A program made the translations under genes and the position numbers. Below, one piece after another: positions 1,274 through 32,368 of a DNA stretch of 64,000 nt. This DNA comes from Siphonodentalium dalli (taxonomy: Eukaryota; Mollusca; Scaphopoda; Gadilida; Siphonodentaliidae), in contig CP136068.1 of NCBI GenBank assembly GCA_032622095.1, positions 159,545,465 to 159,609,464 on the forward strand. The letters run 5' to 3'. The notes under the pieces were generated by a model, which saw only the letters and a list, made by a program, of their open reading frames with translations, did no database searches and was not told the origin of the DNA. Position 1 is the first letter of the stretch; every line of letters begins with the position of its first letter.

Positions 1274-1284
1274 CAAGGCTTGCC

Positions 1285-5203: not shown

Positions 5204-5350
5204 CTGACCCACAACCAAACCTGATAGGACACTACAATCCGCCCACGAAAGGATGGAATGCTGACTGCGGCGTTGTAGATCTCACACAAGCTGGTCTATT
5301 TGACGAATGCTGTAACCGGAACGACTACCACTATGTTCTGTGCGAAATGC
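5204..5350 (+). CDS. exon: C-terminal half of C-type lectin-like domain
   Basis: 49 codons, phase 1 to 1, acceptor TTTTAAAAG and donor GTGAGT. The translation contains KGWNADCGVVDL, then LFDECC and YVLCEM. This is the conserved end of a C-type-lectin fold: a Trp, the Cys before the long loop, and the final two Cys, with CE near the end. The usual Ca-binding WND tripeptide is not clearly kept, so calcium-dependent sugar binding is uncertain. The first half of the domain was not found upstream in the window. Confidence 0.8.
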
Positions 5351-8300: not shown

Positions 8301-11300
8301 ATATAAATCAGCCGCCCTACTAATATATCAGCCTACATGCACCCTCTTACAAATCAGCCGCCCTACTAGTATATCAGTCTACATGGACACTCTTATAAAT
8401 CAGCCGCCCTACTAGTATATCAGACTACATGCACACTCTTACAAATGATCCGCCCTACTATTATATCAGCCTAGATGCACACTCCTATACAAACCATCGC
8501 CTTATATGCATACTCTGACACATCATCGCCTACACGCACACTGTTGCAAATCGTCTCCTACATGCACACTCTTACAAATCATCGCCTATATGCACTCTTA
8601 CAAATCATCGCCTACATGCAAACTCTTACAAATCATCGCCTACATGTACACTCTTAGAAATCAGCGCCTGCATGCAGACTCTTACAAATCATCGCCTACA
8701 GGCACACTCTTACAAATCGTCTCTTTTTCTGACAGCCATCCTTGAAGCAGAATCAATAAACAATGCGTACATCATTGTAAGTATGTGTTGTCAACTGTGT
8801 AGGTATGTTGATGATTTTCGCAGGCGCTTGAAGAAAATAAAAACTAACTTGCCCACTGTTTTGCAAAATAACAAAATTTGTCAAATATAATTGTATTGTT
8901 GCCATTGTAAATTATGGCAAGTGGCAGCGCGAACTCTTATCCTGTATAAATAATTAGCTAAAAATATAGTTAGGCTATCTGCAACAGTACAGTAATGGTT
9001 TATTTAAAGTTCACATACACTAACTACGGTATCCAATTTAACGTACGCGTATCGAGGGTTGCATTAACGTTAACCTTAACTCTCGAAATGAACGCACCGT
9101 TAATAAAATGATTTGTGTTATTTTAAAGGAGACGGTGGGATTACGCCTCAGTATGATGATTCGTTTCTCGTGGACAATACATGCTATCCGTACGTTGGTG
9201 AGTGTTATGTGGATAAAGGTAACGCACATGTATGCTAGATGTGGTGATTGTGGGACACGCCTACACATTGCGTGACTTCATACAACGTTTTAATTCGATC
9301 GAGTCTTCAACATGGGTAAACGAACTTAATCGACACATAACAGATTACTTTAACGAATTATTGTTCGAATTATTTGTTGCGCATGTTTGCCTGAAATAAG
9401 CAAGATTTTCCATTAATTTTGTGCAAACAATTTGTATTCGTCTCCATTACAAACGGTTTGAGTCGATATCCCAATTTGTAATCCATGAGCAATTGTGTTA
9501 ATATGCCCCAGCGTTGAACATAGGGAATTCCACATATGTATCTCCTCTTATGTAAACTTTCCTATTTTACACCAAAATATTCAGAGTGTGACAATGGTCA
9601 GATTGCCAGGCAAAAGAAAAGTGAATATACATGTACTTGTAAACAACATTAAGTGTACGGCGCAAATATCACAGAAGCCTTCCACCAAAACTGTCCACAT
9701 ACAGAGATAGGCTAACTACATTGTCCTCCAAACACACAGTCGTTATATTCTATGTTGCAATTAACATACGTTTAATTCAAGCAATACCTTATGTTTTGCA
9801 GGTACGGCGTGCTTGACGAACCCTTGCATGAATGGCGCTAATTGTTTAGTTGACGGAGCCATCGCGGGTTGTGTGTGTGCCGACGGGTTCTCGGGTGAAT
9901 TCTGCGATACGGGTATGGGTTGAATTGTATCTCACATTTATAACAACTTCACTCCCAGAGAAATGCAAAATCCGAAGAAAACAAAATGATAATAATAGAA
10001 TATATAACAGTTCAACTTCCAAATGTCACACAATCCTTGGTTATGAATGTAAATGTAATATACTGCAAATGTTTTCACATAATCATGCATGTATTTGAAA
10101 TACTATACTTATACAGACCTAATTTGTACGGTCTGATTACTTCTGACTATAGTTTACATACATGTTGCCATTCATCCGAGAGCTCTCGGGGAGAGCTTTC
10201 TGATGAACGACAACAAGCCATATTTCCGACTAAATCCTGAAAAGTTACCCATAATTCTGCTGTGGTTAAGGAGTGGATTACTTAGAGCATTACTGTACGT
10301 GAGCCCGCACATAACACATTTCGCGGGGTCGGGGGTATTGATGTTCAAACAGTGATCTCCAGCACGATTCTTAATTAAAAGCCTGTGACATCACATTATT
10401 CTATATCCTGTGATAAGCCAATCAATTATATAATACGATAATATTGACCTCCATGTTAAGTGTGGTATGCCACAAACACTTGACAGCAATAGAAGACATC
10501 ACTTAAACACTTGTTCTATCTCCACCGCTAAAATAATAATTTTACGAAAGTGTGCTAATTGTCATGATGAGCGACCACCAATCACACGTCAAAAGTTATG
10601 ATGCGCATCCATTATATATTCTGTAACTTCTGTCTGTATGTATGTGTGTATATATGTGTGTTATAGACTCGAAAACTGCTCGACGATCCGACTCAAATTT
10701 GGTATGTAGCCCTACTTTGATCCGGGGAACAATATGGGCTGGTCCAATTTCACGTGCGACCATGTCCTTACCTCGCTCATAAACGCTCATATAGTCATAT
10801 GTCTAGATCGATCGACCGATCCGACTAAAATTTGGTATGTAGGCATACTTTGATCCCGGGAACAATATGGGCGGGTTCAATGTAACGTGCGACCGTATCT
10901 TTGACCTTGACCTCGCTCATAGAGGCATATTTCTGGACCTCGACCGATCCGACTCAAATTTGGTATGTATATACGCCTATTTTTATCCCGGGAACAATAT
11001 GGGCAGGTCCAATTTCGAGTGCGACCGTGTACTTTACATTGGACTAGCTCACATACGCTCATATAGGCATGTTTCTGAACCGATCAAACTTTATTAGATT
11101 AGATTTATCCTAAAACTCTTCAACGTTGATAGCTCAGTATTAAAAGCCCGGGCGATAACCACAACACACATGTATGACAATTAGATTTCAGACCATTCAG
11201 CAGCACGGTCGTACAGGACAATCACACGTCACGTACATGTACACCGTTACTGCGAAGAGGTTGATATTGTCAGTCACATGCATTGCATTACACATATTAA

Positions 11301-14300
11301 GGGTACGACCATGCACGCGTGAGTTTACACATGTTTTTGCAGGCATTTCGATGTTGAAAACGATATGGTGCCAGACATTGAATTGCATCCTTACCAAAAG
11401 CTAACGACATGAGAAGTAGCACTGATGCAGTTTCACATGTGACGATCCTATCTAAACTTCCCTTTAAATGCACGTATTCTTCTCTGAAAATGCGCAATCC
11501 AGCGTCATCGCTGGATCATCCCGCATTTTCCAAGATGCCGAGACAATGTCAAGGCAAAGGCAAAGATCAAGGCAAAGATCAAGGCATATACCAAGGCAAA
11601 AGTACAAGGCAAAGACCAAGTGAAGATTCTCAAGACAAGATTCGAGACACATACGACGGTGACCAATCCCGGCCTCAAGACTTCTCCACCCGATCCGCGG
11701 CCTGACTGTTGAAGATTAAAGACTCCAGAAGATTCAAGACAATCTTCGGATGAGTCCACCAGCGTCCTCGTGCCGCCCTTCGAGCGGGCACGCAAATCCT
11801 TTCGCTGCTGCTCTTGTCAGATACTTGCATGCTTTGTATAGACAAATGTCGGTATAAGCTCTACGTGTGGAACTACTGATATTTCATTTATCACATAGTT
11901 GCCTGTGGTACAGTGGCATTGTGTGTGCATGTTTCCGTTCATATCATGGCAACATATCGTTTTCTGTGAAATGCTTGCAAACATACCGGTAAAACTTGCA
12001 AGTGGATGAGCGTAGCGTGACATGTCTACAATAAAATCTAAATCATAATCATGAGAACACTACATGTCCTTGTTGTCTTGTTAGTCCATGTTCATCCAGT
12101 TGTCAATATATATCTTTAATAACCTCCAAAATGCCCGTGTTGCTATGATCATATACATATTGGCATAGCATACATTTCATTTCTCTCAAATTCACAGCAA
12201 CAGCAAAGTCGACACAGATAACAATGGTAACATATGCGACGTCTGCGATGATAACAACATCGTCACGTGAGTTGTTAACATTACATAACCCTCAGAGAGT
12301 ACGTGCACTTTATTGTGAACTATATGAACTCAATGTCCTTGAATGTGTAATGTGGAAGAACATGTACCGAAATATACAACACGTTCATTATATTAATGTG
12401 TAACTTGAAATATCATTTTCATTTCCTACCATAATAAGTGTACATTATGCCGGGAGGGTTATACACAATAACTTGTTTACAATTGGTCAAATACAAACAT
12501 CGCCACGAAATTAAGTGAATTTAGACAAGTACTATAATCGTCTGTCTCGGAATTACATTTCCATCCAAGATTCAATGCTGTGTTTTGATTGTGATGGTAC
12601 TGTCCACTCTTGTTTCCATTAGAAACAAAACACTAAACTTAGAACGTAGATGTGACTACACCATACAGTTATATCGTTTACCTTAAAGGCACGTGCGGCC
12701 TTAATTGTCGAAAATATTCATATTTGTTCCAAACACCGTAAACAGTAAAACGCATACAGTTCCGTTCATATATACCATGACCATCGCGTAAACAGCATGT
12801 TATCATAAAGACCTACTATATTTTACCTAAGCAAGAGCCTGATTGTGTTACAGAAGACAGCACAATGCTACTGGCTAATCACACAAATGGCATAAACGCT
12901 CTTTATTAGTTCCATATCAGGTATTCACCAACAAAGAACGCTCTTTATGTTTACCATCATAATATAAACAAACACCAGAAAAATAACTGTTTACGCCTTT
13001 TTTTACATAACAATGGTCAAACATATGACCATAACATACTGTTTATGCGATATTTCTTATTTGTATACGGACAAAGTATATCTACATTTTGATGTTCTTT
13101 CTGTTTGTGGCGGTTTTTGACGGGTGGAGATATTTTCACAGGATACCCACCGCTAAGGCCAACCGTGTCTTTAAATTTACAGTAACATCGCAGTCGATAC
13201 AGATAACACAGGTAACAATTTCGACTTCCGCGATGACAACACAGCCCTCATGTAAGTTGTTAACATTACAGCACTCTCAGCTAGTACGTGTACTTTGTGA
13301 ATAATACAAGCTCAGTTTCCTTGCGTGTGTAATTAGTAATAATTTTTTAGTTTAACCCTTTACCCAACAGAACGGCCCTGTGCCAATGCATTCTCTTATA
13401 TATGCGAGTCGACCATAGGTCGCCTCGCATATATAAGAGAATGCATTGGCTTAACACATTACAAATTATAAAATTGTTAAAGAATGTAAGAAAAAATGGT
13501 AAAAAAAAGATTTTTTTTAGCCCAATGCATTCTCTTATATATGCGAGGCGACCTATGGTCGACTCGCATATATAAGAGAATGCATTGGCACAGGGCATAA
13601 CTGTAACTATCACAATGTGGTCAAGGAGCCGGTTCCAATGATATCCATATTTGTATGGTTCTATTGAGACAGACCGAAGATATTTTAGGCTGTTGAAGCT
13701 TTATTTGGCCGGTTTTCCTTGCGTGTGTAATTAGGAATATAATATGGAGTTAAAGGCACCCATTAATTGGCCATTGAGTTTAGGCGCGACAAAATAATAG
13801 TTCTTGATGGTCATTGCCGCGTAGCATATTTCATCAGTGTGCATCACTGTTATGGTATTATCCATGTGTTTCTTGTAAATACCATTATCCTGTCCAACCT
13901 TATTGTGTGACTTGCCCAGGTCGTTCCACACATTTGTATATAACATGTTTAATATCATTATATACATCAATCGCGACTGAATCAAGTGAACCTCCCAAAT
14001 GACGACCCTTCTGTTTTTCCTTTTTTATCCATTTCATTTGACGTTTATTTTCGGGTTTTGCATTACTCGCTCGTTGTGCCACTAGAACTAGAAACAACAA
14101 TACCATGTAAACACGAGCCTGGCATTTCTCTTAAATTAACAGCAAAAGGCAAGTACGAACTTCGCCGTCGGAAACGCCAGAACAACAACAACGGCCATTT
14201 GAATTTGTTATCAGTTGATATACTGTTTTCAAGAACGACTTATACCATATATTTACCACATGTCACGTGTATGTCCGTATTCCAATTTTCAAACACGGCT

Positions 14301-17300
14301 CATTTTGTGATCAAAACACTAACAATTAGAACACACATATGAACATGGCATATATTTAAACCATTTATCTAACATTTACAGCAGCAACGGATGCGACAGA
14401 GACACCACAGGCAACAATTGTGACGTCCTCGATGACAACATCATTGCCTTGTGAGTGTTAAACATGACCACAGCATCATATACATGTAGTGTGTGTACTT
14501 TACCACCGCCTCAGATACATGTAATAGGTGCAGATTGCCGCGCCATCGGATACGTGTACATGTAATACACTTACATGTAGCACCTTCTTAAAGGTGAAGA
14601 TGGTATCATCTTTCTAAAGACGAGTTATATATAGTTTCTGGTGTATAACATATTCGATATGAGTCGAAGAACTTTATACGGAGACGTTTCTATTGTTTAA
14701 TGTCGAATATATTTATAATATTTTCTAGTGTGATTTAGCTGACGATCGATACTGTTTAATGTTATCTGAGACCAGAAATATTATTGTGTAATTTTGTCAC
14801 AAAATAAAGTGACAATTGGACACATTATCGCTAATAGCTATGGAATGAAAACATACACTCAACATGGGACGTTCGAATTGTAGCAATCGGACAACTTTAA
14901 TAATATATATCGTTATCTAATATCGACTGCACTGTATGGGCTAAACTAGTACCAATATTATTATGTCTCATTGTATCAGCTTACTATATCAGAACATATA
15001 TCCAGAACATCGAGAGATAACCCATCTTTAAGCACTAAAACAACTGCATACGTTATTAGGAGTAAACTGTCTAGTATTACTTAAAGGCACTGCATAATTA
15101 ACCGTTATCCTCGTATTACTTGAGAGGATACAGGAAACAGACGCGTGGGGTTGTGCCACCCCAGCCCTTACAACATTTTCATTTGTATATAGTACTGTCA
15201 CGGTATTATTCATGTATTCTTGTAAATAACATTATACTTTTAAACCCATTAAGTTAATTTACAAGGGAGTTATGCAGACTACCATATTTGTAATTTCCTA
15301 CATACAAACGATATGTATGGAATCAAGTGACACTTGCCAATTATGATCATTGTGGTTCTCCTTATTCTGTGTTCATTCAAGATTCAATTTTGAGATTTCC
15401 ATTATCCGCTCTGTGTGCTACTATAAATCAGTGACAACGGCAAAACATAAATACGCTCATACGATTTTTCTAAAAAGAAAACAGCGATAAGGGCACATTG
15501 GAGTATGCACGGAATATTGGCTTTCCGCTAAGGTTTATTAATTGTCTCATTTGGCTCAATTCTAAAATATTAATCTGGCCTGTGATGACTGAACAAATCA
15601 AAAGCACTAACATTAGAACATGAATTATGGACATAGCACATTTAAATCGTTTATCTTAAATAAATATCAACATTGCAGTTGCCACGGACGTCTGCGATGA
15701 TAACACAATCGTCGTGTAAGTTGCTAACAGTACAAAAACCTCAGACAGTACGTGCACATTCTTGATAACTATAGAAAATTACTCCACCACATGCATGCAC
15801 ACTTGGCAATAAACTTAGCAGTTTAGCTTAAAGGCACTCACTAATTCACAATTATTATCGTATTATTTTCCAGACAGGATGTTAGTAGCATAATTTTCGG
15901 GGGGAATTAATTCTACTACAGTGCGTCGGTTTTTGTTACAACGGTTGTTTGAATGCAGAACAAATGATGCTCGAATGTTATGTCCATGAGAAATACTCGA
16001 TTGAAGATCATGTCTGCGTATATAACCATATCTATATCAACGAATATTCCATTGTTTCTCAAACTCATATCAACTCCTTTTGCTAAACTCATTTCTCTCA
16101 TTTGAACAGCCACACCACAGTCAACGCAGACAATGCAACTAACAGCGTTGCTGCCGACGCCAGCAGCATCTTTAAGTGCGTACATTATATATACACATGT
16201 TCATGCTAGTTATGTACTGAACAGAATAATTGTGGCGAATGATTAGGGAGTCAAACATCAAGCAGTAGCGACTGAACACGCTATTCGGTGTCACAAAATA
16301 GCAGTTTAGCCATTCCATAATATTGGTCTTGGCTATTTTAACTACACGTTCAGATATAGTTTCCAAATATGTCTCGACCACTCGTGGATCCTGCTTCACA
16401 GTGTTCATCATGGTGGACAGAAAACCAGTGCCTGTACAACTTGTTTTATTCTTAACATGCGAGCAATTAATTATATATATGACGATACAAATATCAGTCA
16501 TTATTCTGTATATGATCGTATATGTCAACAGTTCGCCTTTCAGTTACCAGACTCATCTCCCTGGTATTTACCCGTCAGTTTGTCGAGCTGATATATTGTC
16601 GGTGCATCCTGTTTTATGTTAATGGAACCGACATATTCTTTGCCATAATTGGCAAAACAAGTAAACAATACGGGCGATATATGCCACACATATACATAAT
16701 AGTAACTTGAAAAGTGCGTTCCACAAAGTGTTACATAAATACTGTCAATGGATATATGTCTTCAGTTTAATTACTCCTTGATACATATATAATATCAGTA
16801 TCCTCAAATTTGTGTTGACAAACCTCATTGTTTAAATTTCCTTTATTACATTAACAGCAGTAGCATGCGGAAGAGAATGTCAGATAAACTTGAACATACG
16901 TGAAATGTATAAAATTTTAGCAGTAGTACATTCTGGCTTATATCGATTTAGAGTCACAAATGGTACACTAAATTGGTTGTATGATCCTCTACTATATCTT
17001 ACTGGATTTATACCTATTCTAGCTACTTAAAATGGTGACATGATATTTAAAAAAACAGCACACGACATCTGTTGGGATAACGATATCACCTTCGCTGTGA
17101 CCATGGTCTTGTTGCTAATTTTAAGAGGAGGCGTTAGCTCCGGTCGGGTCACCGTTTGATTGATACACGGTCTTGCACCTTCGTTCCGAAAACGATAATT
17201 GTGGCGACCGCCTAGGGAGTCACACATAAAGCGGCAGCAACTGATGACGTTATCAATTGTCATTTGGACCTTTTATAAAATATAAGTAACACTGTTATCT

Positions 17301-20300: not shown

Positions 20301-23300
20301 CAGTAACGTACGTCATTGGCGACGTCAACTTTTACAAACAAATATTGTAGTTTATCGTTTCGCGATGTAAAACGCATGCTTCTCGTTTTATCATTCCGCC
20401 ACAACAAATCAGTTCGCAGATTTGTAGCGTTCTAGCTATGTTTAGAATAATACAGAATGGCTTAATCTTAACCTACTTTCACGCATGGTGTGCGGTGCTC
20501 AATGTTCGCTCTCCCAGTTAGTATGTATGTATGTTGCAATATGTTACGATTACTACTGGGATATCTTTGGGCCCATAACTAAATTAAATGTGATCGCGGT
20601 CACTTGATATACTGTTGTATATATCAGAACAAGGTTATCGTTCATTGCCCGTTGATATTCCGCCGGGATTAAATTATTCCAAGGAAATGCACGACCATGG
20701 CCGGAATCCCAAGCGAAAATCCCGGTGTTATTTCCGAAGGGGTGGTGTATAACATGATTATATGTCTGCCTTATTTCAAAACTAGTTTGTCCACACGCCG
20801 ACACTGTCTGTCTCTCGCCCAAGCAATCATCGTTCTAAAGGAAACTAGACGTTATGCATAATGAAGCATAGACGTGTGAAATTGCATGGATGTATCCGCC
20901 AAATATGTATTCGCACAATAACATAAGCAATATTATATGTAAATATAAATTTTAAAAACATTGGATGTGTACAATTATTGTATAATTTCTACATTTTTAT
21001 TGTATTGGTGTATCACGACGTCAGACAAAAACTTGCAATATGTTATCGTTAACATTATTTACAGGACATAGAACAACAAGTTGTGAAGTTCCAAGCGTTC
21101 ATTGGTCTGGTGAGTATCTGAATCGCGTAAAGGTCACCGCAATTTATCGGTGAAATAAAGATAAACTTACATCTGTAGTTTGGGTCATCAGTTTCCAAAA
21201 TCGCTTTCGCTATGTTTGTCATTCTCACACTATTGATACGTGCGTAGCAGATTCAACGAATGTAAAAGTCAAATGGTAGATGGGATCTCAGAAATACTGA
21301 ATAGTGAAAGTGAGCAATGTAATAATTATGGAACTGAGTCTCTGTTAAGTAGTGAACGTTCCCAATGTTATATTTATCGAACCGAGTCTCTACTAAAGTA
21401 AAATGCTAGTAAAAGTATATATTACAATAGTATTATCTCCTACAACAAGTGTGAAAACATAAATTATTGAAGAGAACTTGGGGCTATAACTGTTGCCCGT
21501 AGATACATGTTTGTCCAATTTCTGTTCCTTGATTATTGATTCTTATATTTACCACCATGGACAAGTATGCAGTGTCTGACTCCATTTGTCTTACATAATG
21601 TGCTTTCCTCACTCCCATTGCGTTATAATGCAATACAGTATGTTTACACTTATGCATTAATATGGCTTCATCATATTCCCGAGACAATCGTATTGTGATA
21701 TATATTGGTCATATTGGTACGGTCTTACGTCCAGATTAATGTCTTAGCAGACGGCATAGCCATGTATATACATATACATGTAGTGTAGCCCTCCCCTGGT
21801 AGTATATGTATTTATTAATCAGATATGAAAGTTCTGCACAGAATGGCTTGTTATCGAGTTAGGTGAATATCGCTTCAATCTGGCACTAAACCGAGTAATA
21901 TCATGTTATGACATCACAACTCCGATTAATATCAATTTACGATATCACAAATCCGAGTAATATGGTATTACGATATGAGTAGTATGGGGGGCTTGTTACA
22001 TCCACATCTAAAAATAGATTTTTTGGGTCTAAAATTGTTTGTACTAAAATATTCCCAAAAAAAAAATTCAAAACCCAAATTTTTTTTTCAAAATTTTCAA
22101 CAAAAAAAGTTTTAATCTCAAAAATTTATAATGAGTTTTCGGTTTCGGATAATCTCGGTATTAATTTTTTTTTAATTATTTGAGTGTAATATCTTTCGGT
22201 ATTTTTGTTCAACCAAATTTTGAATATTTTTCATGAAATAGCTTTATACCAATTATATGTGTATGGACAGGTCCGAGTCGCTGTAATTTTGGACATTGTG
22301 ACCATCGGTATGAATGCATACATTCCAGTGTTTATCAATCAGACACAACCCATACATCATATAATTGTCATACCTGAAATAATTTGACACCATTACTCTT
22401 ACATGAATAATAAAGAGCGTTTATTCTTTACTTCTCTATCACGATGAAGTTATTGAGTATATGACAGGTGTGTATTATCGCGAATTATTGGAAGTATTGA
22501 GATGTACTATGTTGAATCATGAGCGGACGAAGAGGGTGATGCGAAATTACAACCCCAGAATGAACTGACATATTCGATGGAACAAATTTTCAAGTATGTA
22601 CACACACACATAATCACCAAAAAATTTCAAAAACTTCCAAAACTTCCAAAATTTCAAAAACTTCAAATATTTCAAAAATTTCAAAAACTTCAAAAATTTC
22701 AAAAATTTCAAAAACTTTCAAAACTTTCAAAAAATTCAAAAAATTAAAAAATTTCCAAAACTTCCAAAACTTCAAAAATTTCAATATAATGGTGGACAAT
22801 ACACTCACGATGTGACAACATATATAGACATAGGCATAGTGTTATATAGTCTTCTATGTACCAACGCTATGACATAATTAAAGGGGGATAATACACGCAC
22901 GGTGTGGAATGTTAAAGTGACACGAGGTAAGGGACGTTATGTAATATTGGTGTGTGAATATTAAAGGAGCACAATGCGCTCTAAAGGGACACACGGCACT
23001 CATTTTGAATGATTGTTAAAGAAACACAATACACACGCAGTGGGTGAAAGTTTCTCGCTTTTCAGGATTTAGTCGGAAATATGGCTTGTTGCCATTCATC
23101 GGAAAGCTCTCAGTGAGAGCTTTCCGATGCAAGCCATATTTCCGACTAAATCCTGAAAAGTTACCTATAATTCTGCTGTGGTTAAGCAGTCCATTTTTAG
23201 GGCATTACTGTATGTAGGCCTACCAGTGGATGAATAGTCTGCCGGAGAAGCACTGTGTAGACGGGGAATCAACAGGTCTTGTCGGTAAGAGAGTCAGACG

Positions 23301-26300: not shown

Positions 26301-29300
26301 ACCTGTCATATACTCAATAACTTCATCGTGATAGAGAAGTAAAGAATAAACGCTCTTTATTATTCATGTAAGAGTAATGGTGACGAATTATTTCAGGTAT
26401 GACAATTATATGATGTATGGGTTGTGTCTGATTGATAAACACTGGAATGTATGCATTCATACCGATGGTCACAATGTCCAAAATTACAGCAACTCGGACC
26501 TGTCCATACACATATAATTGGTATAAAGCTATTTCATGAACAATATTTAAAATTTGGTTGAACAAAAATACCGAAAGATATTACACTCAAATAATTTAAA
26601 AAATTTTAATACCGAGATTATCCGAAACCGAAAACTCATTATAAATTTTTTAGATTAAAACTTTTTTTTTTGAAAATTTTGAAAAAAATATTTTGGGTTT
26701 TGAATTTTTTTTTTGGGAATATTTTATTACAACCAATTTTAGACCCAACAAATCTATTTTTAGATGTGGATGTAACAAGCCCCCCATACTACTGATGTGA
26801 CGTAACTCTATTTAACTGCTAACCAATTTGTATATATGGATTATGTGGCGTCGCTTATATGTCAGATTTATAGGTATTAGACTGTCACTAAGATGCGGTT
26901 TAATTAATAACTATGATATTATTTGGTTGGTTTGATGTTAAACCCCTGTCACACTCAGACCGGCGCTTGCAGGAGGAGCGCCGAAAACTGTCCCAAATTG
27001 TCAAACTTTTAAAACAAACTATGCTCATATTGAGTAACACGGAGGAGGAGCGCCGAAAACTGTCCCAAATTGTCAAACTTTTAAAACAAACTATGCTCCT
27101 ATTGCGTTCCTACTTTGTCAAGTCTCACGCTCTTATTGCGTTCAAGTCGCTGTCATTGTGATGCTAGTACGTTCTCAATACGTTTGCAAAACGCTCTCTG
27201 CGCGGGCGCGGAGAGTATAAATAGCGTCTCCTGCGTTCTCCAGTCATAGTCAGTTTTTAGTTTGTGGGGAATATACCCAACAATCCGCAATAGATTAGCT
27301 GTCCGATTAAATCACTATCAAACTCCGCTGCGATCAGACCGGGGCTTGAATTGCGCTGTAAAATTATCATAGCGCCGAGCAAAGCGCACTAAGGTATCTA
27401 AGAACCGATTGGTGACGCAGTAACGTCGCAGTTGACACTGGCTAGGACGGGATAGGGTCCCCGTGATCGCCTCTGAGCGCCAGAGTGCCGCGTTTGTTTT
27501 GTGCATGCACAAAACAAGCGCAGATGTTCGGCGTTCTGACCAGGCGCAGTACCGTCGCCACGACAGCTCAACGCGAACGACATGAGCGCCCCGTTGACGT
27601 AGCAAGGACTGATACAAGCTACTCGTGGTCATAGCAAGAATTCATCTGCAACTGCAGTAAGCTTACTACGCCTTGGGCAGAACGCAGAGCCTCTGCGCTT
27701 GTTTTGTGCATACACAAAACAAGCGCGGCGCTCTGGTGCATGTGGGCGACCATGGATACCCTCGCCTGTCGTAGCCAGTGTCCACTGCGTCACCAATCGG
27801 TTCTTGGATACCTTAGTGCGTTTAGGTGTGCGCTTTGATACTTTTGCAGCGCAATGCAAGCGCCGACCTTAGTGTGACAGGGGTTTTACAGGCCTAATCT
27901 CAGCGCTCGTAACATCATCTCTGTCCTTCGGTATAAAACCAACCAAGCAATAGCCTCTATGTACTGCTGACACTTGCCCCATCCATATGTTGTATCTACT
28001 CCAGGAGTGGGAGGACGCACGGCTAAAGTGGGATGCAAATAACTCGGTAGATGTCATCTATGATTCGCAGGGTCAGACATGGACACCGCCAATCATCCAT
28101 AGCAACAGGTTAGAGTTATATCAACCAATGGTTCGTTAAGTTTGGGCTTTCACGCCACGACAGTGTTAGAATACCAAGATACCATCATTTATAAGGACTA
28201 ACCCCATTAATGGTCGCGTGCGATCAGATACAGTGATGCTTATGTTTGTGGTCATGTCATATATGTTTTTCGATACATTTAGCTGATTGTAACATGTGTA
28301 CTTTATTAAAGATGTTCGTGTACAATTGCAAATTCAAATTCAAATTCATCACAAATTACGAACGATACGAATGATAGCAATATATTTATTTCAGTTCTCC
28401 CGAAAATCAGCACGTTCTGAACGTTTAATATATGTTTTAGGTTCCTAATCGGCTCAGAATTGCCTCATTCGGCGTCCATAACGAACTGATAATGAGATTG
28501 TTTCCGCGCCATAGTCGACTCATAATGATTTTGTATAAGTTCATTATGGGCCAAAATAACACGACTAAACCAACTCACGACTTGCCAGATGTAGGCTCTT
28601 TCAAATGTGTTTCACTGTGGCCCGCAAAACAGACAGGAATAACGGATATAAGTCCAATATGGGTTTATTTAAGAATAAAATAAACCTATGTGTATATTAT
28701 AAGTCGCTCGAGGATTTGTTGTATATTTATTGTATTCTCATCAACTGTTTACGCCACTATATAGACCATATCCTCACGCACATATAACAGAATGTGTTAC
28801 TCCACTCTCAAGATGTTAATCTAATTTCAGCACGACGTCATGACATCATAAGTATGTTTGGGTCATTCTGCTTGTGTTTGTTGTTTTTTGTCATCCCTGT
28901 GTCATATTGATTTAACTAAGTATGAACTAGGGTAGTGATACAGTGGTATAGATAGGAAAATAAGGGTTCTAAATTTGAACAAAATCTCCTTTTGGTAGGG
29001 GTATATCAAGTGTAGTGAGGCGTAGAACTATATCGTTGAGTTTTTCGTATATACATATTATTGGCTTATTTCATGGTTACTTATATCATTCGCAATGAAT
29101 TAAAATTGACGAAAATTCCAAAATATATCGATTGTACCATTTCAGAAAACACTGTGGCTGAATTACGCACACACTATTTATTACATTTTCGGGAGAGATA
29201 GAGGGAGGGAGGGATATAGAGAGATGATTTATTGACAAAGAGCAATTCCAACAATATATGCACACATAATAGTGAAGATAATGAGGTTCATACATATTAA

Positions 29301-32300
29301 AAGAGAAAAAAACTAAATTTATGCTAACCCATTTGGGATAACGATCCACCAGACGGGCTGAGTGCTCCTTGTCTGGGGAGGGCATAGCCATGAATTGGCT
29401 CTCTTGCTGCCCACCCCAACTAGTCATTAAAATAATACTCTGCTCTGTGTGGAAGCTGCGTGGCCGTTGGCACATTGTATAGAATAACTGTGGTCAATTA
29501 TAGGATATACAATTTGGTGTATTGGATCATTTGGAAACTAATTGGGAATCAAGGGAACATACGGATGAGCAACCACGCGAGTTTAACTGATATATGTATA
29601 TGTAATGATTGATTGGTCATATCACGCAATACTCTTTATGTATTAGTTTTATTTACACTCATTAATTAGAAGAGCCAGGGTCAGAGAATAAGGTGAATAA
29701 CTCGCGAGGTTCGATTGGATGAGATCCAGTCAGAACGTCACACTTTACCTGAAGCAATGTATGACGGGAAATGTCTTTGGCGTAGTTGAATACTATATGC
29801 CACGAGAGCCATATATATTTATATAATATATACATATACATTAATACCCTAAGTAATCGACACTTTATCTACGGCAGAATTATGGGTAAGGGGAGAGCTT
29901 TCCGATGAATGGCAAAAAGCCATATTTCCGACTAAATCCTGAAAAGTTACCCATAATTCTGCTGTAGTTAAATAGTCGATTACTTAGGGCATTACTGTAT
30001 ATGATAGGGACGCATTGTTGGGCAAAACATGACGACAACGTTTCAATGGGAGACTCGCATATATGAGAGAATGCACTGATATTGAATGATGCACCATCGC
30101 AGCTCACACCATGAAACCCACTTGAAAGAGTTAATTCTTACGTTCCAGTCATGGATCGATGACATTGCTTCGATCACCCGATGTTCCAATACAGATCAGC
30201 TCGACCGGAAAACTTAACTGGAGATTCCTGGGTAATATCATGACGTCATGTGAAATGACCGCCGATAATTTTCCATTTGACGAACACCAGTGTAAAATCA
30301 AATTCGAAGTTGTCGGGTATACAGCTGAGTTCGTCCGGATCGCTGTTCCCAACGGGTTGGTGACTGCCAACTTAAGGTACGCAAGTAGTCTGTATATATA
30401 CCCATTCTAGATAACGTGTGGAATTTCTCACACAAACAATCACCTATCGCGCGGCTTAATCTCGAAAGTGTCGTAGATTGAGGCGCGATATGCAGTCACG
30501 GTTAGATTGGCTGTCAGCGTGAGGTGGACCGTAATGACAGCTGTTCCATCATATGTGTTTTTGTTTTATTATTGTATTATTTATTATTTTATATAGTTTT
30601 GTATTCCGCATTAGTGTTATACAGTGCAGGAAAAGGCGTTCAAAATAAATTGAACAGAAATACAATAAGTATATGTCCCTGCCGCTGATGAATGCGGCAC
30701 ATTGGAACAATGCATGCTATAGTCTTACAATGTTTACCAACTCCTCTTGTTATGATAATGGATAACATGCCAAATCATTTGTAAATGTGCTTGATACAGT
30801 ACCAGTGTTTGTACTGTCGTATAATAATGTATCGTGTTTTTCTTAAGCAAAAACAAGGACTGGGTTCTTGCAACAGGCGACACAGACACCAGTAGTCTGC
30901 CTGAAACGGTATCCTACGCAGTCCTGCCATTCACAGTAACCAGACAGCCAATGTCCTTCCTCGTCGCCAATGTTATACCTGCCATTGTCGCAGCGCACAT
31001 GGGGCCGTTGGTATTCTACCTACCGCCAAGCTCTGGAGAACGCATGGGGTACATCGTCACGGTGTTCCTCGCTTTCGTGTTCATGAACACTTCTGTGAAT
31101 ACAATGCTACCAGCTCAGTCGGGAACACTATCATCACTGGGTATGTGCATTTGATTAATCAAAATTATCATAAATCACTATTGTACGCGAAGGTCTATAC
31201 ACTCAACAATTACCCAACGGCGGTGTAATTGTATATGTAGCTACGCTTACTGAATTGTATAATTGGTTCTACTCAACGTGTTGGGTAAACTTTCTGCAAC
31301 ACTTTGAAGTGAAGTCTGCCCACAACATATAGCAACCGGGGAGCGGCGGTCCATCTAACTTTCAAGAATTTGTCATCAAATCCCCTATTCTCTATATATT
31401 AATATACTATTCAATATGTTGATATATGTTAAAACAATACATTACATATAAGGGATTTGGGGACAAGTTATGTAAAACTTACATACATGGAGTTCCGATA
31501 TTAAAGATGATACCTAGACGCAATCATGAATATAACAAGTTATGTATTGATTTATTTTCGATTTCTAGCAGGTGTTGGTAGAATGGGTAGAGCATATATA
31601 TAACGTACGTGAATATAACGGATATAGCATGAGGAGTGTTAGCGATAGTCTATTTTAAATCCATGATTGTGTGTGGGGGACTGAAGAGTAGTTATATACA
31701 TATATATATATATGGAAATTATAACAACTGACAGCACACATGTAAATGGTGAGAAAGGTATAGTTGGTGGTTTTGGGAAATAGTAAATAGGAAGGGGTCG
31801 CAATGTTTGCGCCGGCCTAATGCGACGGAATTACCGATGCTCCACATGTTACTCGCTTGTTCGTTAAACATCAGTGTAAAGGTAAATAGATGTATTCTGA
31901 ACTATTCTTCCGTGTTTCCCTTGTTCTTAAGACACAGTTGCGGAAATGCAACGCAATTACACATCGCATCTACAACGTGCCTTTCATTGTATTACAGCCT
32001 TATACCTTCAACTACTGGGTTTGAATGGCGTGCTATGCATTCTGTTCTCAATGTGGAACATGGTAGTCAGTAACCGTGGTGACAAACCCGTTCCAAGTGT
32101 AACGCAACTCATCATCCGGCTGATCAAAACACCTTCACAGCAAACAAGTGAGAGAAAAGTACAACCGATCCCTGATATCGATATAATCATCAAACCGGAC
32201 CAATACACCAATAATATGATCATCAAACCGGACCAATACGATACACACGTCGGAAACGTATCATGGAAACAGGTGGCGGAGCTATATGACGTGATATGTT

Positions 32301-32368
32301 TAGTAATATTATCTGTGTACAACATTTGCCTCACGCTTGTGTTTGCTGGGAAAATGAACTTAATCTGA
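5204..32368 (+). CDS. Cys-loop ligand-gated ion channel subunit with C-type lectin, EGF and mucin-like ectodomain (15 usable exons, 5' end not found)
   Basis: Model: 5204-5350, 9129-9197, 9802-9912, 12198-12266, 13183-13251, 14382-14450, 16110-16175, 17881-17952, 18505-18576, 19042-19202, 21065-21109, 28005-28108, 30149-30376, 30848-31140, 31932-32368. All borders are AG/GT and every phase joins: 1-1 up to the receptor part, then 0, 0, 2, 2, 1. The product seen is 669 residues. Order: end of a C-type-lectin domain, EGF-like domain, Thr/Ser-rich stalk, pentameric-channel ligand-binding domain with Cys-loop, four membrane segments. The family forms pentameric plasma-membrane channels gated by small ligands. 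The pore keeps Gly-Glu before M2 and Leu at 9', which suggests cation selectivity. No vicinal Cys pair is seen in loop C, so it is not a classical alpha subunit. Ligand and partners are unknown. That the lectin/EGF part and the channel are one gene is inferred from strand, order and phase; transcript data would settle it. Confidence 0.85.
6470..6540 (-). mobile_element. SINE-like 3' tail
   Basis: On the minus strand it reads GTGATATGGC, then a CTGCTAAAACGACGTTAA stretch, followed by CCCCCCAATCAATCAATCA. A tail of the same build lies at 45720-45797 on the + strand. Tails of this type end SINE families in several marine invertebrates. No tRNA-like head with A and B boxes was recognised. Confidence 0.5.
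7299..8303. mobile_element. about 1-kb insertion in the minisatellite, with terminal palindrome
   Basis: The minisatellite is cut within a unit and resumes in the next with TATAA on both sides, which looks like a short target duplication. The right end is a near-perfect 159-bp palindrome (8140-8298) centred on TTTCGCTTCGCGAAA. The left end does not match the right, so it is not a simple inverted-repeat transposon. Two short open frames inside (7386-7598 +, 8038-7817 -) have no recognised relatives. Confidence 0.6.
8140..8298. repeat. 159-bp near-perfect palindrome
   Basis: The left arm GCAATCAACGTCGTTTTCG is mirrored by CGAAAACGACGTTGATTGC. The arms of about 51 bases match with no visible mismatch, then a partly matched centre. 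It could form a long hairpin. Confidence 0.9.
9129..9197 (+). CDS. exon: linker of the receptor ectodomain
   Basis: 23 codons, phase 1 to 1, acceptor TTTTAAAG, donor GTGAGT. It encodes a linker with a single Cys (VDNTCYPYV). It joins in frame to the lectin exon before it and the EGF exon after it. No domain was recognised. The single Cys could pair with another ectodomain Cys. Confidence 0.6.
9802..9912 (+). CDS. exon: EGF-like domain
   Basis: 37 codons, phase 1 to 1, as is usual for shuffled EGF exons. The six-Cys pattern is visible: C-x4-C-x4-GAN-C, then C-V-C-ADGFSGEF-C. The GFSG-x-x-C ending is typical of EGF repeats. The Asp/Asn residues of a calcium-binding EGF are not obvious. Acceptor is TTTTGCAG and donor GTATGG. 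Confidence 0.85.
10165..10310. mobile_element. palindromic miniature element, copy 1
   Basis: It shares AAGCCATATTTCCGACTAAA, then TCCTGAAAAGTTACCCATAA and the GCATTACTGTA end with copies at 23050-23215 and 29845-30000. An inner hairpin, GAGAGCTCTCGGGGAGAGCTTTC, precedes it. Confidence 0.75.
10608..11100 (+). mobile_element. Helitron-like repeat fragment with three 130-bp tandem units
   Basis: It starts TCCATTATATATTCTG followed by a TGTCTGTATG run, the same plan as the element starting at 63083. Three units follow, each with CCGACTCAAATTTGGTATGT at about 10687, 10817 and 10946. No CTAG end with hairpin was found, so the 3' end is probably lost. Confidence 0.55.
12198..12266 (+). CDS. exon: Thr/Ser-rich stalk unit 1
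   Basis: 23 codons, phase 1 to 1, donor GTGAGT. The translation is Thr/Ser-rich (STQITMVTYATSAMITTSS). It is similar in sequence and length to the exons at 13183, 14382, 17881 and 18505, so it is one of a tandemly duplicated set. The family of such segments is usually O-glycosylated and holds ligand-binding domains away from the membrane. Confidence 0.7.
13183..13251 (+). CDS. exon: Thr/Ser-rich stalk unit 2
   Basis: 23 codons, phase 1 to 1, acceptor TTTACAG, donor GTAAGT. It reads SIQITQVTISTSAMTTQPS. The flanking intron downstream also resembles that of unit 1 (a GTTGTTAACATTACA stretch follows both donors), so the duplication unit included intron sequence. Confidence 0.75.
13352..13716 (+). 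mobile_element. TTAA miniature element (piggyBac-like ends), right end lost
   Basis: It begins TTAA then CCCTTTACCCAACAGAACGG and contains two 67-bp palindromes (13383-13449, 13522-13588). The right part runs to TTTGGCCGGTTTT and then stops, without the TGTTGGGTAAAGGG end seen in full copies. TTCCTTGCGTGTGTAATTAG is present on both sides (13316 and 13714). Confidence 0.85.
14382..14450 (+). CDS. exon: Thr/Ser-rich stalk unit 3
   Basis: 23 codons, phase 1 to 1, acceptor TTTACAG, donor GTGAGT. It reads ATDATETPQATIVTSSMTT. Its length matches units 1 and 2. Confidence 0.72.
14451..16109. other. introns among the stalk exons
   Basis: Apart from the decayed exon at 15679 no coding segment was recognised. 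Parts are similar to neighbouring introns (CACTAATTCACAATTAT at 15840 and the matching stretch at 15088), as expected if intron sequence was duplicated with the exons. Confidence 0.5.
15679..15715 (+). pseudogene. decayed stalk exon
   Basis: This stretch matches the 3' half of units 1-3 (the ACGTCTGCGATGATAACA core) and keeps a GTAAGT donor and the GTTG-TAACA intron start. It is only 37 bases long after the nearest AG, so using it would break the phase-1 chain. The 5' part has been lost. It is left out of the gene model. Confidence 0.65.
16110..16175 (+). CDS. exon: Thr/Ser/Pro-rich stalk unit 4
   Basis: 22 codons, phase 1 to 1, acceptor TTTGAACAG, donor GTGCGT. It reads TPQSTQTMQLTALLPTPAAS, more diverged than the first three units and one codon shorter. 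Confidence 0.65.
16858..16899 (+). pseudogene. possible decayed stalk exon
   Basis: The acceptor context TTTATTACATTAACAG matches that before units 5 and 6, but the following sequence (VACGRECQINL in phase) is not Thr/Ser-rich and the candidate donor GTGAAA is weak. It is probably a relic of one duplication. It is left out of the gene model. Confidence 0.35.
16900..17880. other. intron among the stalk exons
   Basis: Parts of 17200-17850 resemble 16220-16860 (AATTGTGGCGA--GCCTAGGGAGTCA-ACAT, TATATAATA-CAGTATC), showing an ancient tandem duplication of about 1 kb that carried a stalk exon with it. No functional exon was seen. Confidence 0.6.
17881..17952 (+). CDS. exon: Thr/Ser/Pro-rich stalk unit 5
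   Basis: 24 codons, phase 1 to 1, acceptor TTTATTACATTAG, donor GTACGT. It includes MQTPQVSTPILPTTASQTS. It is clearly paired with unit 6, so the two arose from a recent local duplication. Confidence 0.72.
18505..18576 (+). CDS. exon: Thr/Ser-rich stalk unit 6
   Basis: 24 codons, phase 1 to 1, acceptor TTGCATTAACAG, donor GTACGT. It includes STQTNQVSTPILTTTTSQTS. It is the last stalk unit before the receptor domain. Confidence 0.75.
19042..19202 (+). CDS. exon: start of Cys-loop receptor ligand-binding domain
   Basis: 53 full codons, phase 1 to 0, acceptor TTATGCAG, donor GTGAGC. After a short Pro/Thr lead it contains LRAQLFSLSTYANEVKP, which corresponds to the N-terminal helix of pentameric channels, where mature nicotinic subunits start. 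A beta strand ending in VDLRVLFDV follows. The direct join of a stalk-type lead to this helix is what links the stalk to the channel. Confidence 0.85.
19370..19660 (+). repeat. dispersed repeat, copy 1
   Basis: GTTCTCCCGAAAACC-GCACATTATCTGCT and ACACAAATAAGCCAACTCACGAC are shared with 28390-28640 on the same strand and 48540-48755 on the opposite strand. No terminal repeats were recognised. Confidence 0.7.
19801..20232. repeat. array of 28-bp GGTATACC-centred palindromes
   Basis: The unit GCTAAAGAGC-GGTATACC-GCTCTTTAGC and close variants occurs nine times in full (19801, 19836, 19978, 20013, 20057, 20092, 20127, 20170, 20205) and once as a half at 19870. Each is a perfect or near-perfect inverted repeat. 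From 20011 the units form a higher-order repeat of about 114 bp, joined by GTATCAGG-CCAT-TA spacers. The array lies in a receptor intron. Confidence 0.93.
21065..21109 (+). CDS. exon: ligand-binding domain, beta1-beta2 region
   Basis: 15 codons, phase 0 to 0, acceptor TTTACAG, donor GTGAGT. It reads DIEQQVVKFQAFIGL, matching the conserved small exon of nicotinic-type subunits in which a D-E-x-x-Q strand precedes the W-x-D-x-x-L-x-W motif found in the next exon. Confidence 0.85.
21978..23049. repeat. left inverted terminal repeat of the Polinton-like element
   Basis: It is the reverse complement of 25712-26793 with few differences. It contains an A/T-rich minisatellite (AAATTTCAAAAACTTC units, 22615-22775) and an open frame at 22205-22387. 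The inner border is at TGGGTGAAA. Confidence 0.95.
22205..22387 (+). pseudogene. small hydrophobic frame in the left terminal repeat
   Basis: 60 codons. The same frame in the right repeat continues to 80 codons; here a TGA replaces the CGT-type codon of the partner, so this copy is shortened. The peptide is rich in Ile/Val/Tyr (VAVILDIVTIGMNAYIPVF) and may be membrane-associated. Whether it is expressed is unknown. Confidence 0.35.
23050..23215. mobile_element. palindromic miniature element, copy 2, nested in the Polinton-like element
   Basis: CTTTTCAGGATTTAGTCGG is mirrored by CCGACTAAATCCTGAAAAG around a GGAAAGCTCTC-AGTG-AGAGCTTTCC centre. Here, unlike the other two copies, both arms are present. 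It lies directly inside the left terminal repeat. Confidence 0.85.
23230..23433 (+). CDS. small basic protein of the Polinton-like element, unknown
   Basis: 67 codons with ATG start. Basic clusters (GKRVRREVKSRLLKH) could bind nucleic acid. No family recognised. It lies between the nested miniature element and the first zinc-finger gene, on the same strand as the other frames of the element. Confidence 0.35.
   Translation: MNSLPEKHCVDGESTGLVGKRVRREVKSRLLKHSNAIANIKRVCARISVKGYNSSHWSIYPRCQLSI
23475..23678 (+). CDS. one-finger C2H2 zinc-finger protein of the Polinton-like element
   Basis: 67 residues. A complete classical finger sits at the N-terminus: Cys5, Cys8, His21, His26 with C-x2-C-x12-H-x4-H spacing and the usual Leu before the first His. 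A Gln-rich stretch (about 31-43) follows, then a repeat of FAHFF-C motifs to the end. Such single fingers usually bind nucleic acid or protein weakly. The C-terminal half looks like expanded low-complexity DNA. Function in the element is unknown. Confidence 0.7.
   Translation: MKYQCEECSSVYAWQDSLKRHIKVKHKPSEQQQQQYHQPQQQQHSFAHFFCPFAHFFCSFAHFSHPL
23830..24294 (+). CDS. membrane-anchored PC4-like protein of the Polinton-like element
   Basis: 154 residues. Residues about 43-60 (WIGITIMVISVSLPFILV) form one hydrophobic membrane segment. Residues about 100-152 resemble the single-stranded-DNA-binding fold of PC4/Sub1 coactivators: a YTDIR strand, a turn, G-I-P-L-N-x-x-Q-W, then a helix ending SDINKTI. 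Cellular PC4 has the same Gly-Ile-x-Leu-x-x-x-Gln-Trp and terminal helix. PC4 proteins bind single-stranded DNA and act in transcription and replication; a membrane anchor in front of the fold is unusual. A second in-frame Met at 23881 would shorten the start by 17 residues and keep both parts. The PC4 assignment is from motif reading only. Confidence 0.65.
   Translation: MSPDIKINKSKLYTRTIMDNRTSTLANTFQTERGRLQVNLLKWIGITIMVISVSLPFILVPKKIPRESVDYELLHTNMSHPNDYEQHPCVFVKKWTIRSNITVTLCNNQGHIYTDIRRVVNNTPTIIGIPLNLNQWSIFKHIFSDINKTIREEE
24476..24797 (+). pseudogene. small basic-tailed protein of the Polinton-like element, frame broken near the start
   Basis: An ATG at 24476 opens a short frame that ends after 24 codons; from about 24511 the next frame is open to the stop at 24797. 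The switch is at a run of five A, so a one-base indel is the likely cause; the long frame has no good ATG of its own near this point. The long part has an acidic middle (DSEEDV) and a Lys-rich tail (NNKKKMKRKV), like a DNA-binding or nuclear protein. No family recognised. Confidence 0.45.
24805..25047 (+). CDS. short frame of the Polinton-like element, doubtful
   Basis: 80 codons, starting just after the preceding stop and overlapping the next gene. It has a hydrophobic run (SLFLSILIRVIVLPII). The last third is read in the wrong frame of the zinc-finger gene that follows, so at most the first 55 codons could be a real product. Confidence 0.25.
   Translation: MNEYIEYHTDKLALIESPAVKYLYPSPGTNVLLTRRLYTTPYSLFLSILIRVIVLPIIRDNARVSFMRNYFIDQLQSTKT
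24967..24987 (+). promoter_or_regulatory. 21-bp motif shared with both terminal repeats
   Basis: CTTCCAATAATTCGCGATAA(T) occurs here, at 26276-26296 on the same strand, and at 22474-22494 on the opposite strand. The exact 21-base match outside the repeats suggests a protein-binding or start-of-transcription site, or a gene-conversion patch. Confidence 0.5.
24986..25561 (+). CDS. C2H2 zinc-finger protein with acidic region, Polinton-like element
   Basis: 191 residues. One classical finger at the N-terminus: Cys4, Cys7, His20, His25 (C-x2-C-x12-H-x4-H). An acidic segment follows (about 38-66, many Asp/Glu/Ser), then an SMSGDE/SMSGKE double repeat, then a Lys-rich helical C-terminal half. The plan of a DNA-binding finger plus an acidic region suggests a small transcription regulator of the element. 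Directly upstream (24967-24987, overlapping the ATG) is a 21-base copy of a motif also found in both terminal repeats. Confidence 0.7.
   Translation: MHGCHLCGIILSTNYNLQRHKQIKHGVMSETKTTLFREDTDDLESDEAVLDSDEDERGTISDSEDDNVVGSRTVFGLKKSARCVNEMDTFKSMMKRVTSDAKGEESMSGDESMSGKEATIDTEFALFLKSYRRLIEYQYRLKTSPIHNMIMKKMVKLTKHGYNNEWAADEAMRKFKKLLEINLTVEDSDND
25712..26793. repeat. right inverted terminal repeat of the Polinton-like element
   Basis: It mirrors 21978-23049, ten bases longer overall, mostly through length change in the TTTTGAAATTTTTGAAG minisatellite (25978-26150). Confidence 0.95.
26323..26565 (-). CDS. small hydrophobic frame in the right terminal repeat
   Basis: 80 codons on the minus strand, so it reads inward from the element end, as does its twin in the left repeat. 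It shares the central VAVILDIVTIGMNAYIPVF segment and has a further basic tail (NNKERLFFTSLSR). No family recognised. It could be chance; the support is that the frame is open in both repeats for 60 codons. Confidence 0.35.
   Translation of the reverse strand: MFNQILNIVHEIALYQLYVYGQVRVAVILDIVTIGMNAYIPVFINQTQPIHHIIVIPEIIRHHYSYMNNKERLFFTSLSR
26941..27885. mobile_element. Harbinger-like non-autonomous element, 945 bp
   Basis: It starts AACCCCTGTCACACT and ends with the complement; the similarity of the ends runs about 30 bases (to CGGCGCTTGC). TTA flanks both sides, the target duplication typical of PIF/Harbinger. The left part has a 72-bp direct duplication from about 26971 and a TATAAATAG box at 27216 in a GC-rich setting. 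The right half is a large imperfect inverted repeat (27385-27600 against 27640-27826, with GAACCGATTGGTGACGCAGT and its complement). No transposase frame was recognised. Confidence 0.72.
28005..28108 (+). CDS. exon: ligand-binding domain, loop D to loop A
   Basis: 34 codons plus 2 bases, phase 0 to 2, acceptor CTACTCCAG, donor GTTAGA. It reads EWEDARLKWD, then IYDSQGQTWTPPIIHSN. These match the conserved W-x-D-x-x-L-x-W and I-W-x-P-D-x-x-x-x-N motifs of nicotinic-type subunits. The Asp of the WxPD motif is Pro here. Confidence 0.93.
28390..28640 (+). repeat. dispersed repeat, copy 2
   Basis: It shares GTTCTCCCGAAAA-C-GCAC and CCAACTCACGACT with 19370-19660. Diverged. Confidence 0.6.
29845..30000. 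mobile_element. palindromic miniature element, copy 3
   Basis: CCTAAGTAATCGAC and GCAGAATTATGGGTA at the left mirror TACCCATAATTCTGC and GTCGATTACTTAGG at the right. The centre shares the AAGCCATATTTCCGACTAAA segment with copies 1 and 2. This copy shows the outer inverted ends best. Confidence 0.82.
30149..30376 (+). CDS. exon: ligand-binding domain with Cys-loop
   Basis: Phase 2 to 2, acceptor CGTTCCAG, donor GTACGC. It contains the signature loop CEMTADNFPFDEHQC: two Cys separated by 13 residues with the FPFD core. Before it is the conserved GKLNW strand and after it CKIKFEVVGY. This one exon is decisive for the Cys-loop family. Confidence 0.97.
30848..31140 (+). CDS. exon: pre-M1, M1 and M2
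   Basis: Phase 2 to 1, acceptor TTTTTCTTAAG, donor GTATGT. It includes TVTRQPMSFLVANVIPAI (pre-M1 and M1 with the conserved R-x-P), the LPPSSGER turn, then M2 MGYIVTVFLAFVFMNTSVNT and MLPAQS. Counting from the Arg as 0': Glu at -1', Thr at 6', Leu at 9', Phe at 13'. Glu at -1' without the Pro-Ala insertion suggests a cation pore. The C-loop region lacks the Cys-Cys pair of alpha subunits. Confidence 0.95.
31932..32368 (+). CDS. terminal exon: M3, cytoplasmic loop, M4
   Basis: Phase 1 in, acceptor TTGTTCTTAAG, stop TGA at 32366-32368. M3 spans the region ITALYLQLLGLNGVLCILF. A short cytoplasmic loop of about 70 residues follows, with the motif IIKPDQY present twice in a row, and then M4, ICLVILSVYNICLTLVFAG. 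The protein ends four residues after M4. No clear AATAAA signal was seen soon after the stop. Confidence 0.93.

Follow-up and report, generated by a model that had tools for sequence, protein, structure and literature searches.

A Cys-loop channel gene with a predicted lectin, EGF and stalk ectodomain in the scaphopod Siphonodentalium dalli

The question raised by this locus is whether one gene can place a C-type lectin-like domain (CTLD), an EGF-like domain and a Thr/Ser-rich stalk in front of a nicotinic-type Cys-loop channel. In the usual view, an animal Cys-loop channel consists for the most part of a ligand-binding domain (LBD) followed by four transmembrane (TM) helices. In the 64,000-nucleotide stretch of the Siphonodentalium dalli genome analysed here (C8:159545465-159609464, referred to below as the window), the initial annotation proposed a channel subunit that bears a stalked lectin/EGF head. 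According to the exon structure described below, it is very likely that a single protein composed of lectin head, EGF domain, stalk and channel is encoded. The exons of the model are as follows; the first two lie upstream of base 1 and are given in window coordinates.

-14424..-14264: CTLD exon 1 (e1), phase 1 to 0
-11307..-11193: CTLD exon 2 (e2), phase 0 to 1
5204..5350 (+): third CTLD exon (e3), phase 1-1, with the motifs QPN...GWNADC...LFDECC...YVLCEM; Lectin_C above the cut-off
9802..9912 (+): exon of the EGF-like domain, six Cys, phase 1-1
12198..12266 (+): Thr/Ser mini-exon S1, phase 1-1
13183..13251 (+): Thr/Ser mini-exon S2, phase 1-1
14382..14450 (+): Thr/Ser mini-exon S3, phase 1-1
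15679..15715 (+): apparently decayed mini-exon, 37 nt as bounded, phase broken; outside the model
16110..16175 (+): Thr/Ser mini-exon S5, phase 1-1
17881..17952 (+): Thr/Ser mini-exon S6, phase 1-1
18505..18576 (+): Thr/Ser mini-exon S7, phase 1-1
19042..19202 (+): LBD exon L1, phase 1 in and 0 out, 5' end NTTDPVAAE
21065..21109 (+): LBD exon L2, 45 nt, phase 0-0
28005..28108 (+): LBD exon L3, EWEDARLKW...TWTPPIIHSN
30149..30376 (+): LBD exon L4, with the Cys loop CEMTADNFPFDEHQC
30848..31140 (+): exon T1, end of the LBD, TM1 and TM2
31932..32368 (+): exon T2, TM3, intracellular loop, TM4 and stop

The exon bounds were set by reading at consensus splice sites, and the joining was done by script. 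The 14 window exons between 5204 and 32368 fused in phase. When 40 kb of upstream sequence was examined, two CTLD exons were found that complete the lectin domain; the resulting 16 exons comprise 739 codons plus a stop, with no internal stops. The order of CTLD, EGF, Thr/Ser stalk and full nicotinic-type channel given in the initial annotation was thus recovered in a stop-free frame with joining phases. Its statement that 15 exons join unbroken held for 14 of them, the exception being the stretch at 15679-15715, which breaks the phase. The upstream extension that it advised yielded the first part of the lectin domain but not the signal-peptide exon. The gene starts 14.4 kb or more before base 1 of the window.

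A scan for Thr/Ser/Pro-rich exons of phase 1-1, the thresholds of which were chosen after the exons had been seen, retrieved all six mini-exons at 9.9-19.1 kb (7 rows) and none in the control stretches, namely 32.4-64 kb and the whole reverse strand. Therefore, a chance alignment of the mini-exons was rejected as unlikely. The same scan of 20 kb of a paralogue on contig C3, in which the stalk is a single exon, retrieved none.

Paralogues were sought in the genome of 2.23 Gb on nine contigs. Single open frames that match a nicotinic-type LBD were abundant genome-wide, many of them 350-500 codons long (best 150 of 822 candidates, a lower bound). The L4 and T1 queries identified nine further loci at 62-88% (best 150 of 585 candidates), and L1, L3 (best 150 of 164) and T2 (38 of 38 scored) matched at the same ten loci. 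L1, L3, L4, T1 and T2 follow one order at all ten; beyond the window, L2 was looked for at C3 only. This count is based on match positions, and the CTLD-EGF queries were represented by the best 150 of 249 and of 547 candidates. At three of the ten channel loci, located on three contigs (the window on C8, C3 and C7), CTLD e1, e2, e3 and EGF were found, in this order, upstream of the channel and on its strand. The positions at the two paralogues are given here.

C3: e1 58562157, e2 58575853, e3 58578413, EGF 58593515, L1 58604946
C7 (-): e1 152968609, e2 152962304, e3 152950711, EGF 152871554, L1 152851506

By reading, the head exons at C3 and C7 have the same phases as those in the window and contain no stops. 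The recurrence of the order CTLD e1-e2-e3-EGF-LBD-TM at three loci supports the proposal that head, stalk and channel form one subunit.

Several smaller features were noted around the paralogues. Beside T1 of the C7 paralogue, there is a second partial T1 copy (81%, 42 residues, L038:912-1037). A second EGF exon is present at C3 (L067:2562-2674) and seems, by reading, to use a GC donor (gcaagt). A remoter channel relative is located at C2:52100797-52106960 (-), where T2 (38% identical), part of T1 (45%) and part of L3 (41%) occur in order. A weak EGF-like match (C8:159457314-159457439, E 0.003) lies some 80-90 kb before the window, as does an isolated T2 fragment (C8:159464788-159464934, 55% over 52 residues); the two are perhaps a relic copy.

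The stalks differ considerably among the loci. The window stalk consists of 139 aa (27% Thr, 18% Ser), and its mini-exons contain no N-glycosylation sequon. At C3, one exon with a phase-1 acceptor encodes a stalk of 668 residues (31% Thr, 25 sequons), composed mostly of Thr-rich 18-residue repeats, and reads into the LBD. The stalk of the C8:159.20 paralogue likewise reads into the LBD; it has approximately 1670 residues from the likely acceptor (1676 from the open-frame start), a period of 18 aa, 31% Thr, 85 sequons and no stop. The acceptors of both stalk exons were assigned phase 1 by reading, which covered 388 bases before the open frame in the case of C8:159.20. Neither frame opens with Met, and Met codons occur inside the repeats. 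In a simulation of neutral divergence for C8:159.20 (68 of 93 units kept as regular), a mean of 7.3 stops arose, with at least one in 200 of 200 runs, compared with 0 observed.

The repeat array matched only at the LBD exons of C3 and C8:159.20 (51 matches; best 150 of 402 candidates). Because the 18-aa unit of both paralogues resembles NTTDPVAAE, the start of L1 in the window, the array probably grew within the L1 exon. At C8:132.87 (one of the 133-Mb genes, of which 300 bases were read), L1 seems to begin with ANTTDPVAVEM and to be stalk-free. In the 2.5 kb read at C7, a mini-exon before L1 aligns with its flanks to S7 (about 72% of 171 columns); otherwise, only L1 with its flanks and a 25-nt piece align to the window.

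The arrangement could alternatively reflect two adjacent genes, namely a CTLD-EGF(-stalk) lectin with its end before 19042, and a plain or stalked channel that has a separate promoter and signal peptide. Genes of nicotinic acetylcholine receptors (nAChRs) usually leave the signal-peptide exon in phase 1, so that exon 2 starts in phase 1. Because L1 starts in phase 1 like this exon 2, phase cannot decide the L1 junction, and the agreement with the usual exit from the signal-peptide exon is a point for two genes, as is the presence on C2 of clustered CTLD-EGF exons without the T2 exon of this channel. A scan for signal peptides, defined as an ATG, a hydrophobic core and a phase-1 donor, gave further points for two genes. 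In 9913-19041 it returned 5 rows, which fall at two positions (10598 and 11237), both between the EGF exon and S1. In the controls, the density per 10 kb was 0.95 rows for 32.4-64 kb and 0.31 for the reverse strand; the window is at about the control density. The place at 10598 (4 overlapping rows) overlaps a block of 70% identity with C3 in a tandemly repeated stretch, and that at 11237 reads MYTVTAKRLILSVTCIALHILRVRPCT and then GTGAGT. In addition, an ATG at 18839, noticed by eye, is followed by MSKIIFYYLLFI and a phase-1 GT and is below the scan length. However, 11237 is outside all blocks aligned with C3, and 18839 is outside all those aligned with C7.

Other findings are also at odds with two genes. 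The scan found no candidate between the second EGF exon and the stalk exon at C3. It was also empty for the 2.2 kb that precede L1 at C7 (of the 20 kb from EGF to L1) and for 410 bases around the open-frame start at C8:159.20. At C3 and C8:159.20, a single open frame behind a phase-1 acceptor encodes both stalk and LBD, and the head-channel exon order is repeated on three contigs. A promoter with a signal-peptide exon just before 19042, which the initial annotation had named as the observation that would contradict it, was therefore considered unlikely, because stalk and LBD share one exon at two paralogues and the C3 and C7 scans were empty. Thus, two adjacent genes are regarded as improbable, and a single protein remains the preferred reading of the locus.

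The identity of the domains was examined on the spliced protein and on the heads alone. On the spliced protein, Neur_chan_LBD was detected by Pfam at 6.5e-27 (94.8 bits, cut-off 26) and Lectin_C at 6.6e-5 (24.0 bits, cut-off 22.6). Scanned alone, the heads of the window, C7 and C2 gave Lectin_C scores of 26.4, 28.4 and 27.4 bits, respectively. The EGF domain of the window scored 17.7 bits (head alone), under the Pfam cut-off of 21.5, and was under it on the whole protein as well; its six Cys align with Notch EGF structures. The EGF score was 13.7 bits at C7 and 47.2 bits at C3 with its two EGF exons, and no EGF match was listed by Pfam in the C2 head.

In the channel part, the Cys loop has 13 residues between the cysteines and was aligned with octopus CRT1 and nAChR alpha; TM1 and TM2 were located via the same two alignments. 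For TM4, a weak second stretch of alignment with nAChR alpha was obtained (3.0 bits, not significant), and TM3 was placed by reading only. In the alignment with nAChR alpha (9dmg_A), the loop B Trp is replaced by Val and the vicinal Cys pair by Ser-Leu. These residues mark the acetylcholine site (alpha-type), and since they are absent, normal acetylcholine binding is not expected. In this alignment, TM2 retains the -1' Glu and the 9' Leu, as in cation channels, so the channel should pass cations. The LBD of the window protein contains sequons.

The motifs of a calcium-dependent sugar-binding CTLD are EPN or QPD and WND. QPN was found in the window, C3 and C2 heads and QPD in the C7 head; the WND position is occupied by LFD (window), ILD (C3), IYD (C2) and VLD (C7). 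The CTLD is without WND, and therefore its ligand may differ from a calcium-bound sugar.

For L4 and T1 (173 codons), dN/dS was 0.16 between the window and C7, 0.25 between the window and C3, and 0.16-0.42 in 28 of 28 pairs of eight loci. The set included eight of the ten loci, C8:159.11 and C8:132.87 being left out; the EGF value was not used, as its dS of 1.73 is saturated. Purifying selection acts on the channel exons. In a tree of the ten channels and three outgroup rows, the window paired with C7 (81/76, not strong), and C3 grouped with C8:159.11 and C8:159.23 (100/96), the latter being the C8:159.20 gene. The channels of the window and C7 are 87% identical, and the window head is 63% identical to the C7 head and 60% to the C3 head. 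One C2 head is 63% identical to the window head and 69% to the C3 head. Either the heads evolve faster, or the C3 head was taken separately from a C2-type gene.

The C2 head belongs to clusters at C2:209.85-210.62 and 218.69-218.77 Mb, in which CTLD e1, e2, e3 and EGF exons, the same set as in the window, recur many times on both strands. No match to the T2 exon was found in these clusters at E up to 1 (38 of 38 candidates scored). Judging from these matches, the C2 genes probably encode CTLD-EGF proteins that lack this channel; they may be the donors of the heads. It is suggested, tentatively, that phase-1 exon shuffling put CTLD-EGF heads, perhaps repeatedly, on a nicotinic-type channel and that the stalks were lengthened by two routes, giving receptors that would sense or grip glycan-coated surfaces up to hundreds of nm away. 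The two routes would be multiplied mini-exons in the window and at C7, and 18-residue repeats inside the LBD exon, seeded by NTTDPVA, at C3 and C8:159.20.

In a sequence search of solved structures, the best match of the channel part was CRT1 (4.5e-25), followed by nAChR alpha (4e-24). Cephalopod chemotactile receptors (CRT1, PDB 9e6b, 8eis) have WTPPI in common with this channel, but the matched CRT1 chain of 410 residues contains no lectin, EGF or stalk, and the channel of this gene is interrupted by introns. The LBD-TM fold, the Cys loop and TM2 -1' Glu and 9' Leu are common to nAChR subunits and this channel, whereas the latter lacks the Trp and the vicinal Cys of the acetylcholine site. 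A 45-nt LBD exon, like L2, is carried by nAChR genes. The accessory domain of the bacterial pentameric channel DeCLIC differs, and no lectin, EGF or mucin stalk is found in it. DeCLIC is reported to be a member of the Cys-loop superfamily with an extra N-terminal domain before the LBD. The ectodomain of polycystin-1 has other modules. Polycystin-1 resembles the protein proposed here in that it belongs to a channel complex and carries an ectodomain CTLD, and it is the nearest precedent found for a CTLD acting on a channel, but it is an unrelated 11-TM protein with no Cys-loop fold. The polycystin-1 CTLD is reported to activate the PC-1/PC-2 channel complex (PMC7728438).

In a review (PMC11526382), chemotactile receptors are described as having diverged from nAChRs and as being opened by hydrophobic molecules. 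Intronless expansions of nAChRs in molluscs, and some mollusc nAChRs that carry other domains, e.g., dynamin or GAIN, are reported in PMC6896357, and the word lectin is absent from the main text of that paper. No lectin-bearing Cys-loop channel is described in the titles and abstract starts of the open-licence PMC literature, among the matches listed, which agrees, within that literature, with the claim that no family with this order had been described. A protein search with the 739-aa model gave no match at 0.001 or better among 7996 scored; ordinary nAChRs were also missed, so this says little about animals.

The following mechanism is proposed for the single protein. The ectodomain of a Cys-loop subunit would be extended by phase-1 exons encoding a C-type lectin-like head, an EGF spacer and a Thr/Ser stalk. 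Five subunits would form a cation channel on the surface of sensory, epithelial or blood cells, with the stalk presumably glycosylated and extended. The targets of the lectin head would be glycans carried by mucus, matrix, prey, food or microbes; a bound head would hold or concentrate the channel at that surface. As in octopus chemotactile receptors, gating could occur at the LBD through a ligand that is not acetylcholine. The roles suggested in the initial annotation were those of a possible tether to a glycan or matrix, or of a receptor for glycoproteins or microbes. Glycan-anchored contact sensing is ranked first among the uses considered, although it is put forward tentatively; the architecture and this use taken together are considered somewhat probable.

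The same protein could be used in other ways. The head might act as a tethered agonist that binds N-glycans of its own or a neighbouring channel and opens it, as reported for polycystin-1 and polycystin-2; this possibility, ranked second, is considered unlikely. Sequons in the LBD and the 25 and 85 sequons of the paralogue stalks are consistent with it, but the mini-exon stalk of the window has none. A tether-gated mechanosensor, in which the head grips a surface and a pull on the stalk opens the channel, is ranked third and is rather improbable. It would fit the order of head, spacer and stalk and the variation of stalk length among paralogues (139, 668 and about 1670 aa); however, a mucin-like stalk without folded repeats would be a soft spring, and to our knowledge, Cys-loop channels are not known to open by pull. 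It is highly improbable that the fused model represents a broken or unexpressed copy. The decayed mini-exon and the relic-like EGF match and T2 fragment at C8:159457314 and C8:159464788 could be taken as signs of decay, but the 16 exons contain no stop or frame break, and dN/dS is 0.16 versus C7 and 0.25 versus C3. A pseudogene was thus rejected as unlikely in view of the 739 stop-free codons and the low dN/dS of the channel.

A number of observations weigh against the reading of a single headed protein used in glycan-anchored contact sensing. The signal-peptide exon of the gene was not found in a scan of the 25.6 kb before CTLD e1, which gave two candidates; the nearer of them, 3.6 kb before e1, had nine DNA matches (itself and eight scattered ones), none of them at the C3 or C7 head loci. 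The weak signal-peptide-like places at 10598 and 11237, after EGF, leave some probability for a stalked channel without a head in the window. At seven of the ten paralogues, no head exons were found among the matches listed at E up to 1, and C8:159.11 and C8:159.20, the closest channel relatives of C3, are among these seven. Because of this distribution, the head appears to have been lost or gained repeatedly. At C7, a 79-kb gap separates e3 from EGF. The CTLD at C3 scored 17.9 bits for Lectin_C, under the cut-off of 22.6, and calcium-dependent sugar binding by the window CTLD is uncertain, with LFD at the place of WND. For C3, the neutral simulation (25 of 37 units kept) gave 2.8 stops expected with a minimum of 0, which makes it a weak test. 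Between-unit dN/dS was 0.89 at C3 and 1.21 at C8:159.20; therefore, it is the open frame rather than the sequence that looks kept. Finally, the lead of CRT1 over nAChR alpha in the structure search was small.

If the single headed protein is correct, a fast ion channel would gain, through a lectin head on a mucin-like stalk, a device for recognition and placement, and glycan recognition and electrical signalling would be joined in one molecule. Long stalks precede the LBD in two paralogues (668 and about 1670 residues), one of which is headed. The exon record suggests an assembly in which phase-1 modules entered the phase-1 intron at the usual nAChR signal-peptide exit and the receptor's own sequence gave rise to the stalk. 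A comparison set is available within one genome, where some paralogues are headed and others apparently head-less.

Several repetitive features were also observed in the window. The intron between CTLD e2 and e3 contains a tandem array at 1283-3882 (383-bp unit, 6.8 copies). The stretch at 13352-13716 shares 96% identity over 374 columns with sequence close to the C3 paralogue (L068) and is palindromic in the window; it is probably a mobile repeat. An element of approximately 4.8 kb with long terminal inverted repeats and several open reading frames occupies 21975-26796 in the L2-L3 intron. Its arms, 22031-22784 and 25986-26739, are 95% complementary, and its open reading frame at 23463-23675 encodes a C2H2 zinc finger above the Pfam cut-off. 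A satellite with a 31-bp unit in 65 copies is located at 50930-52939.
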